Assembly: GCA_025963425.1 (NCBI GenBank)
Contig: JAOPUQ010000453.1
Coordinates: forward strand, 1 to 35,414
Origin: Modestobacter sp.
GTDB taxonomy: Bacteria; Actinomycetota; Actinomycetes; Mycobacteriales; Geodermatophilaceae
Direction of reading: 5' to 3'
Length of the DNA: 35,414 nucleotides
The notes under the pieces are model-generated. The model was not told the DNA's origin and searched no databases. It worked only from the letters and a program-made list of their open reading frames with translations. Position 1 is the first letter of the stretch. Each line of letters begins with the position of its first letter. Below, in pieces: positions 22,195-29,680 of the stretch. Both the position numbers and the translations under genes were made by a program.

Positions 22195-23442
22195 ATGGTG
22201 AAAGTGATCCTCCAGCTGTACCCCCAGATCCCGGCCACCCGCGATGAGCGCATCGAGCAGCGCCCGATGGGCCGCGACGCCGAGCGCTACCAGGCGCTCA
22301 TCCGGGAGATGCCGGACATCATCAAGGCCGCCGACGAGCTGGGCCTGTGGGGCGTCTCCTCCATCGAGCACCACTTCCACAGCGAGGGCTACGAGGTCGG
22401 CCCCAACCCCGGCCTGCTCAACGCCCACTGGGCGGCGATCACCAAGAACATCCGGGTCGGCCAGCTCGGCTACACGATGAGCGCGCAGAACCCCTTCCGG
22501 GTCGCCGAGGACGTCGCGATCATCGACCACCTCGCCGGCGGCCGGTCCTTCTGCGGGTTCTCCCGCGGCTACCAGGCCCGGTGGACCAACATCCTGGGGC
22601 AGCACCTGGGCACTCGCGCCACCCTCTCGCCCTCGGGCAACCAGGAGAAGATGGCCGAGCTCGACGAGGCCACGCAGGCCGCTCGCATCTCCGACGACCA
22701 GATCAACCGCGAGATCTTCGAGGAGAACGTCGAGCTCGTCCAGCAGGCCTGGACCCAGGACAGCGTGGAGTGGAAGGGGCGCTGGCAGGTCCCGTTCCCC
22801 TACGACGAGGGCGTCGACTGGACCATGACCGCGACCCGCGAGATGGGCGCGGTCGGGGAGATGGACGAGCACGGCAAGATCCGCCGGGTCAGCGTCACGC
22901 CCAAGCCACTCACCCAGCCGCACCCGCCGGTCTTCGTCTCCAGCAACGCGAGCAAGGAGACGGTGGAGTACTGCGGTCCGCGCGGGTTCATCCCGACCTA
23001 CTTCTCGAAGATCGAACGGGCGGCCGAGTTCGGCGGTGCCTACGTCGAGGCCGCCGCCACCGCCGGCAAGACCTACGCGCTCGGTCAGAACCAGGCGCTG
23101 GTCCGGTGGGGGCAGATCGCCGAGACGACGGAGGAGGCGCGGCAGATGGTCGCCGACTACGACGTCGACATCTTCCGGGACCTCTACGCCGGTACCACCC
23201 CGATGAAGTTCGACCCGGACAACGCCGTGGACTCGGTCGTCAACTCCGGGCTGTGGGTGGTCGGCACGCCCGAGGAGGTCCGCGACCAGTACGTCGAGCT
23301 GTGGCGTCAGCTGCCGGCCGAGTACGTCGTGCTCATCTACCACTACGCGCAGCAGCCGGCGCAGAGCGTCATCCGGCAGCTCGAGTTGTTCATGGAGCAC
23401 GTCAAGCCGGCCCTGGACGCGCTGACCGACTACGAGGTCTGA
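22195..23442 (+). CDS. LLM-class (luciferase-like) flavin-dependent monooxygenase 3
   Basis: 415 residues from the ATG at 22195; the ORF-track start at 22153 adds a short unrelated leader. The LLM barrel is clear: DELGLWGVSSIEHHFHSEGY with the EHH motif, IRVGQLGYTMSAQNPFRVAEDVAIIDHLAGGR, the CGFSRGYQARWTNILG cofactor loop, and PKPLTQPHPPVFVSSNASKETVEYCG. It is longer than simple LLM enzymes because of an insertion at about 150-225 (EKMAELDEATQ to the Trp-rich stretch), which may cap the active site. It should use FMNH2 and O2, often for ring or C-heteroatom cleavage. It is the first gene of an operon with ribBA and hydrolytic/dehydrogenase genes; no flavin reductase follows. Confidence 0.9.
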   Translation: MVKVILQLYPQIPATRDERIEQRPMGRDAERYQALIREMPDIIKAADELGLWGVSSIEHHFHSEGYEVGPNPGLLNAHWAAITKNIRVGQLGYTMSAQNPFRVAEDVAIIDHLAGGRSFCGFSRGYQARWTNILGQHLGTRATLSPSGNQEKMAELDEATQAARISDDQINREIFEENVELVQQAWTQDSVEWKGRWQVPFPYDEGVDWTMTATREMGAVGEMDEHGKIRRVSVTPKPLTQPHPPVFVSSNASKETVEYCGPRGFIPTYFSKIERAAEFGGAYVEAAATAGKTYALGQNQALVRWGQIAETTEEARQMVADYDVDIFRDLYAGTTPMKFDPDNAVDSVVNSGLWVVGTPEEVRDQYVELWRQLPAEYVVLIYHYAQQPAQSVIRQLELFMEHVKPALDALTDYEV

Positions 23443-23534
23443 CGTGGACGCGACGGCGGCGCCTGCCCGGCACGTCGGCGGTCCCGGCCTGCCCGGCCGG
23501 GACCGGCCGGGACCGCCTCCGTCGCGTCCACGTC
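23441..23534 (+). other. Large nested hairpin between LLM3 and ribBA
   Basis: Outer arms are exact over 16 bases (23441-23456 with 23519-23534), starting inside the LLM3 stop codon. Inside them a 13-bp stem pairs 23477-23489 with 23505-23517. A direct repeat of GGCCGGGACC (23495-23504 and 23505-23514) allows an alternative 10-bp, 5-base-loop hairpin with 23480-23489, so two mutually exclusive folds are possible. It may be an operon terminator/attenuator or a novel structured leader of ribBA. A further 7-bp stem (23552-23558 with 23580-23586) follows before the ribosome-binding site. Confidence 0.6.
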
Positions 23535-23613
23535 GGGGCTCTTGCCCTCCGCGGCGGGACCTGCTGTGCGCTGCAGCCGCCCGCCGTCCCCTCTCGTTCA
23601 GCGCAGGAGTGAT

Positions 23614-24969
23614 GTGAACGGCACCAGCGACACGACGGGCACGTCCACGAGCTTCAACACCATCGCCGAGGCCCTGCAGGAGATCGCCGACGGCGGCATG
23701 GTGGTGGTGGTCGACGACGAGGACCGCGAGAACGAGGGCGACCTCATCATGGCCGCCGAGCACGTCACCCCGGCGGACCTGGCGTTTCTGATCCGGTACA
23801 CCTCCGGCGTCGTGTGCGTGGCGCTCACCGGCCAGCGGTGCGACGAGCTGGACCTCCCGCTGATGGTCGGCACGAACACCGAGCAGCACGGCACCGCCTT
23901 CACGCACACCGTCGACCTGGCCGCCGGCACCACCACCGGCATCTCGGCCGCGGACCGGGCGGCGACCATCCGCGGGCTCGCCGACGAGACGCTGACCGCC
24001 ACCGCCTTCCACCGCCCGGGCCACGTCTTCCCCCTGCGCGCCCGCAGCGGGGGCGTGCTCGAACGCGGGGGGCATACCGAGGCCGCCGTGGACCTGGCGC
24101 GCCTGGCCGGCCTCGCCCCGGCGGGCGTGCTCTGCGAGGTCGTCAACGACGACGGGACCATGGCCCGACGCCCGGACCTGGAGCGGTTCGCCGCGGAGCA
24201 CGGCCTGCCGATCGTGACGATCGCCGACCTCGTCCAGCACCGGCGCCGTGGCCAGGTCGCTGTCGAACGCACCGGCGAGGCGCGTGTGCCCACGCCGTGG
24301 GGACAGTTCCACTGCACCAGCTACCGCGCCGTCAGCGACGGGACCGAGCACGTCGTCTTCACCCTCGGCGACGTCTCGGCGCCGGAGGACCTGCTCGTCC
24401 GGGTGCACAGCGAGTGCCTCACCGGCGACATCTTCCGGTCGCTGCGCTGTGACTGCGGCCTCCAGCTGGAGAGCGCGATGGCCCGCATCGCCGCCGTCGG
24501 CCGTGGGGCGGTCGTCTACCTGCGTGGCCACGAGGGCAGAGGCATCGGCCTGGGCCCCAAGCTCCGCGCGTACGACCTGCAGGACGCCGGCCGGGACACC
24601 GTGGACGCCAACCTCGACCTCGGGATGCCGGTCGACAGCCGCGACTACGGGATCGGCGCGCAGATCCTGCTCGACCTCGGCGCGAGGCGGTTGCGGCTGC
24701 TGACCAACAACCCGGCCAAGTACGGCGGGCTGACCGGCCAGGGCCTGGAGATCGTCGGCAGGGAACCACTCGAGACCGTGCCGAACCCGGAGAACCTCGG
24801 CTACCTGCGCACCAAGAAGCGCCGGCTGGGACACCTGCTCCACGGCCTGGACGAGGTGCAGGTGCCGCCCGAGCGCCGGGCACCGGACCGGCACCCCCGC
24901 GCGCGTCCCCCGGTGGAGCGCCCTACCCCGCAGGATGTGCTGGCCGGGCACGGCCACGCACTCCGCTGA
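23614..24969 (+). CDS. ribBA: Bifunctional 3,4-dihydroxy-2-butanone-4-phosphate synthase / GTP cyclohydrolase II
   Basis: 451 residues from the GTG at 23614, with AGGAG four bases upstream; the ATG at 23612 is out of frame. The N-terminal RibB domain has DDEDRENEGD (about 34-43), the THTVD and TTTGISAADRA segments (about 92-110) and GHTEAAVDL. The C-terminal RibA domain has the zinc site CLTGDIFRSLRCDCG (about 270-284), a GHEGRGIGLGPKLRAYDLQD loop, DSRDYGIGAQIL and the LLTNNPAKY motif. All key residues I can check are present, so both activities are likely. The protein makes the two precursors of riboflavin from ribulose 5-phosphate and GTP. No other rib gene is nearby; it is embedded between LLM3 and an FAA hydrolase, suggesting a dedicated paralogue. 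Confidence 0.94.
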   Translation: MNGTSDTTGTSTSFNTIAEALQEIADGGMVVVVDDEDRENEGDLIMAAEHVTPADLAFLIRYTSGVVCVALTGQRCDELDLPLMVGTNTEQHGTAFTHTVDLAAGTTTGISAADRAATIRGLADETLTATAFHRPGHVFPLRARSGGVLERGGHTEAAVDLARLAGLAPAGVLCEVVNDDGTMARRPDLERFAAEHGLPIVTIADLVQHRRRGQVAVERTGEARVPTPWGQFHCTSYRAVSDGTEHVVFTLGDVSAPEDLLVRVHSECLTGDIFRSLRCDCGLQLESAMARIAAVGRGAVVYLRGHEGRGIGLGPKLRAYDLQDAGRDTVDANLDLGMPVDSRDYGIGAQILLDLGARRLRLLTNNPAKYGGLTGQGLEIVGREPLETVPNPENLGYLRTKKRRLGHLLHGLDEVQVPPERRAPDRHPRARPPVERPTPQDVLAGHGHALR

Positions 24970-27316: not shown

Positions 27317-27365
27317 GGACGCCGGCCCGTCGTCCACCGTGCACCAGCGCACTGACGTCGGGACC

Positions 27366-27408
27366 GCGGCTGCGCGGACCGCCCCTCGGGGCCGGTCCGC
27401 GCAGCCGC
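27366..27408. terminator. Very strong bidirectional terminator hairpin between convergent operons
   Basis: GCGGCTGCGCGGACCG (27366-27381) is exactly complementary to 27393-27408. The 11-base connecting segment contains CCCC-TC-GGGG, which can extend the stem further with one bulged C. It lies between the GlcG stop (27316) and the cyclase stop (27427) and can serve both strands. Confidence 0.8.
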
Positions 27409-27426
27409 CGTCGCGAGGACGTCAGG

Positions 27427-29641: not shown

Positions 29642-29680
29642 TGGGCACGGGCGCCGGTCCGGGGAGGGCGCCCGTGCCCA
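29642..29680 (-). terminator. Perfect 14-bp hairpin between ABC ATPase and LacI genes
   Basis: TGGGCACGGGCGCC (29642-29655) and GGCGCCCGTGCCCA (29667-29680) are exact complements with an 11-base loop. It fills most of the 79-base gap. It probably ends most transcription of the SBP3 importer genes, with partial read-through into the regulator, or else acts as an attenuator. Confidence 0.65.

Follow-up and report, generated by a model that had tools for sequence, protein, structure and literature searches.

In mycobacteria, 'I-shaped' hairpins without a U-tract are described as the predominant kind near stop codons, and U-less stem-loops are on record at transcript 3' ends (reviewed in PMC12288462); a U-less hairpin within an operon lowers the signal of a downstream reporter (PMC5335608). 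Studies disagree, with in vitro work among them, on whether U-less hairpins can terminate transcription unaided (Czyz 2014 against Unniraman 2001 and Ahmad 2020, all as cited in PMC12288462 and PMC5335608). Of 535 highly structured transcript 3' ends in Streptomyces clavuligerus, 353 lack a U-tract and make up the 'HS-U-lack' class; they may be I-shaped terminators or the trimmed ends of Rho-dependent transcripts (PMC8269248).

We analysed a long nested hairpin in a stretch of 35,414 nucleotides from Modestobacter sp. (contig JAOPUQ010000453.1, hereafter the window). The hairpin occupies part of the 171-nt gap between a monooxygenase gene, whose product matches Pfam Bac_luciferase (E 1.5e-24), and a ribBA gene, whose product matches NCBIfam NF006803 with 623.6 bits against a cut-off of 569. 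The original prediction, made from the sequence, had described a large RNA structure with alternative folds in front of ribBA and proposed that it might be a terminator, an attenuator or an undescribed cis-regulatory RNA. Features of the locus are collected in the table.

Table. Features of the monooxygenase-ribBA locus and further U-less hairpins of the window
Feature	Position	Strand	Description
Luciferase-like (FMN/F420-type) monooxygenase gene	22195..23442	+	Probable ATG 22195; TGA 23440-23442; upstream of the hairpin
Long nested GC-rich hairpin, no U-tract	23441..23534	+	Outer stem 16 bp, 23441-23456 (GACGTGGACGCGACGG) / 23519-23534 (CCGTCGCGTCCACGTC)
Inner stem region	23477..23517	+	Left arm 23477-23489 (GGCGGTCCCGGCC) pairs with 23495-23505 (11 bp) or 23505-23517 (13 bp)
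Third stem, between main hairpin and ribosome-binding site	23551..23587	+	Fold of 23535-23616, -34.5 kcal/mol
ribBA Shine-Dalgarno AGGAG	23605..23609	+	4 nt before GTG; read from sequence
ribBA paralogue (3,4-DHBP synthase / GTP cyclohydrolase II)	23614..24969	+	GTG 23614
Second U-less hairpin	27366-27408		16-bp perfect stem; convergent gap 27317-27426 between a GlcG-like gene and a cyclase gene
Third U-less hairpin	29642-29680		14-bp perfect stem; tandem gap

The structural elements that the original prediction had listed were all located. The outer arms are perfectly complementary and enclose 62 nt, the left arm begins within the monooxygenase stop codon, and the hairpin ends 79 nt before the ribBA start. 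Nested inside is the predicted 13-bp inner stem. The direct repeat CCGGCCGGGA, at 23493 and 23503, creates the expected two adjoining right arms for one left arm; the inner stem preferred by energy is the 11-bp pairing with the first of these (23479-23489 / 23495-23505), not the 13-bp one. A third stem indeed lies ahead of the ribosome-binding site. The hairpin is real and non-random and exceeds what base composition would lead one to expect: the region folds with a minimum free energy of -120.6 kcal/mol, compared with -93.8 +/- 4.5 in dinucleotide shuffles (z -5.98), and stems of at least 15 bp were absent from three shuffles of the window.

The 3' tail of the hairpin, GGGGCTCTTGCC, has no U-tract, and the element is therefore not a canonical (L-shaped) intrinsic terminator, in which a GC-rich stem is followed by such a tract; a terminator scan of 23441-23613 called no terminator. 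The hairpin does have the features by which the I-shaped type is defined in PMC12288462, namely a stable GC-rich stem that lies no more than about 50 nt from the stop codon and lacks a U-tract, and it is a member of a class that is enriched at gene 3' ends across the genome. This enrichment emerged from a survey of perfect inverted repeats of at least 13 bp, with arms at most 110 nt apart, in gaps between genes called by a home-made codon-usage caller that recovered the genes identified in the window. The sampled stretches add up to about 1.14 Mb and come from three other genomes of the genus and from the window's own genome, where stretches were partly picked through weak DNA matches to this hairpin. 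Such repeats are present in 39 of 113 gaps of the convergent type, 46 of 388 of the tandem type and 4 of 158 of the divergent type; the corresponding figures after shuffling are 0.15, 0.6 and 0.85. Fisher tests gave p values of 1.5e-13 for convergent versus divergent gaps (with 40 convergent cases under a slightly different edge rule) and 2.6e-4 for tandem versus divergent gaps.

Hairpins in tandem gaps start a median of 19.5 nt past the stop codon, some of them at -4 to -1 as in the window, and 41 of the 46 have at most two T among the eight bases that follow, with a mean of 1.6. They are arranged like elements that mark gene ends, and lack the U-tract that classical terminators have. One near-twin in another species (locus L099, 14010-14105) has a 17-bp stem, a 62-nt loop and a nested 21-bp stem, and begins 3 nt past a stop codon. 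The survey totals leave out samples from two Geodermatophilus genomes, G130 and G079, which represent another genus; the count for G130 is inflated by one repeat-rich stretch. In G130 (L100-L109), 148 inverted-repeat pairs crowd into just six convergent gaps, and another 122 lie in coding sequence or at edges; they probably represent a dense repeat array, CRISPR-like or other.

The terminator-type reading, one of the three options originally offered, is thus supported by genome statistics. We consider it likely that the element is a lineage-specific, intercistronic, U-less ('I-shaped') 3'-end hairpin placed on the monooxygenase stop codon inside a monooxygenase-ribBA-FAH operon, and that it would act through partial pausing or termination, through a block to 3'-to-5' exonucleases, or both. 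The 16-bp stem and the nested inner stem would, when transcribed, fold in the wake of RNA polymerase as soon as the terminating ribosome leaves the stop codon free. The folded hairpin might then cause part of the polymerases to pause or terminate, or might block 3'-to-5' exonucleases after Rho-dependent termination. The monooxygenase message would gain a stable 3' end while part of transcription continues to ribBA, with the net effect that the monooxygenase message would exceed that of ribBA. A terminating, pausing or protecting action of this hairpin, together with the resulting polarity, is what we infer.

The downstream gene is one for which partial expression appears tolerable. A second near-full-length ribBA homologue, 54% identical, is present in the source genome (contig C494; the match crosses one TGA), and members of the genus that lack the monooxygenase-ribBA cluster have a single homologue of this kind per genome. 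The cluster-borne ribBA is thus an extra copy, and its partial expression is probably harmless to the riboflavin supply. A dedicated ribBA paralogue lies directly behind a luciferase-like monooxygenase gene across Geodermatophilaceae and in one Nitriliruptorales MAG; a gene for an FAH-type hydrolase accompanies the pair, as does, in most loci, a divergent acetyl-CoA-synthetase-like gene. This travelling paralogue suggests that flavin is supplied locally to a catabolic enzyme that depends on it and, to judge from the gene neighbourhood, the extra RibBA may provide the flavin for the monooxygenase.

A complete terminator at the end of the monooxygenase transcript, combined with an independent promoter for ribBA in 23535-23604, is an unlikely but not negligible alternative. 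In its favour, the gap, short in relatives, is 171 nt long here and leaves 79 nt between hairpin and start codon. However, a scan found no promoter-like hexamers between the hairpin and ribBA, although it covers GC-rich actinobacterial promoters poorly; this stretch is itself GC-rich and folds stably, and the gene order and short spacing in relatives suggest one operon. Because ribBA would fall silent behind a complete terminator if it had no promoter of its own, complete termination is less likely and only a partial action fits.

The order monooxygenase-ribBA-FAH is also found in Blastococcus sp. CT_GayMR19 (L041), Geodermatophilus sp. YIM 151500 (L042), G. africanus (L043) and G. ruber (L045), whose monooxygenases are 87-89% identical, and the monooxygenase-ribBA pair occurs in the Nitriliruptorales MAG (L044). 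The distances from stop to start are 30, 1, 72, 32 and 46 nt, respectively, and a stem comparable to that of the window is absent from all five gaps. Searches of the genus, of 115 genomes from the family and of 395 from the class turned up no further close copy. The start of the G. africanus gap, TGACGTGCACGCG, resembles the left arm in the window; it is short and has no right arm, and we treated it as a chance resemblance. On the loci compared, the hairpin is specific to the Modestobacter source species or its close kin, which leaves nothing for covariation to act on. A conserved cis-regulatory RNA would show compensatory changes before orthologous ribBA genes, and the original prediction had itself named a lack of covariation across relatives as grounds for abandoning it; that lack is found here in the form of a structure missing from five of five syntenic loci.

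Such a restricted distribution, together with the palindromic character of the element, would also be expected of a palindrome of mobile or repetitive type (REP or MITE-like) that was inserted and has no function at this site. We regard this as quite improbable. The 3.7 Mb searched of the source genome, a 70.6%-complete MAG from which copies could be missing, contain no second copy, and the best other match has an E value of 0.002 over 34 nt. Weaker matches to the hairpin DNA occur in four other genomes of the genus; these cover just part of the hairpin. A repetitive-element origin was accordingly set aside.

The position ahead of a riboflavin-synthesis gene raises the question of a riboswitch. 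The original prediction had excluded an FMN riboswitch and proposed an Rfam search, which bears it out: at gathering thresholds nothing matched in the whole window, RF00050 included, and at E <= 10 neither RF00050 nor any other relevant family appeared around the gap (23000-24000). The only notable sub-threshold match, mir-22, reached 30.4 bits against a cut-off of 48, lies antisense of coding sequence and was taken as chance. RF00050 was found in none of the 23 genomes of the genus that were searched (G000-G022), yet the same search recovered it from 7 of 14 named control genomes and from 6 genomes that belong to other families in the order. Riboflavin genes of the genus therefore appear not to use the FMN riboswitch.

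It follows that control of ribBA in these 23 genomes must lie elsewhere, which, with the duplicated GGCCGGGACC and the placement of the hairpin, could be taken to favour an undescribed ligand-sensing or attenuating leader for ribBA, in which the two inner right arms would represent mutually exclusive states. We find this hard to credit. With the outer stem retained, folds using the first and second right arm have energies of -80.5 and -75.7 kcal/mol, and the 11-bp pairing with the first arm has a probability of at least 0.975, compared with 0.001 for the 13-bp pairing with the second; a difference of 5 kcal/mol leaves the second state a predicted share of about 0.1%. Neither the Shine-Dalgarno sequence nor the outer and third stems are predicted to change between the inner folds, and neither fold reaches a U-tract. 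The states of a switch have to differ in some feature that can be read, and any switching here would be without visible output. The switch-like competition originally proposed for the right arms thus gives way, in the modelled folds, to a register alternative inside one hairpin. Nor does the idea of an RNA dedicated to ribBA agree with the same gap lacking the structure in five other genomes, with nothing comparable in Rfam, or with similar hairpins standing at the ends of genes across the genus irrespective of which gene follows. Also very improbable is a young, species-level RNA switch for the ribBA of this catabolic cluster, set in a genus that lacks FMN riboswitches; in such a switch the ribosome terminating at the monooxygenase stop would decide whether the outer stem forms and hence whether polymerase reads on into ribBA.

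The U-less 3'-end hairpin remains our preferred reading: the structure looks like one of the many GC-rich gene-end hairpins of these genomes and a role as riboflavin switch is improbable. Taken singly, the hairpin carries little weight and serves as an example of the ordinary gene-end hairpins of GC-rich actinobacteria, here Geodermatophilaceae. Since highly stable nested hairpins, duplicated arms included, are commonplace at gene ends there, stability and alternative pairings are by themselves poor evidence for a riboswitch. The gap survey, in turn, quantifies in Geodermatophilaceae a class of hairpins whose ability to terminate is contested in mycobacteria.

Among described systems, the FMN riboswitch (RF00050) would be expected where the hairpin sits, upstream of a riboflavin-synthesis gene; unlike it, the hairpin gives no covariance-model match. 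TtsaD of the M. tuberculosis alr-groEL1 operon (PMC5335608) likewise lies just downstream of one gene inside an operon and lacks a U-tract, although the genes are others. TtsaD was assayed with a GFP reporter and the HS-U-lack class of S. clavuligerus was defined by Term-seq (PMC8269248), whereas the window hairpin and its assignment to a class are predicted from sequence. With HS-U-lack ends it shares a high degree of structure and a U count below three in the 8 nt that follow the stem (two, in GGGGCTCT). Compared with the I-shaped hairpins of mycobacteria and other GC-rich actinobacteria it is bigger and has a nested stem, and its outer arms are separated by 62 nt where those have a short loop; in common with them, it has a long GC-rich stem at a stop codon, no U-tract, and counterparts at many gene ends of its genus.
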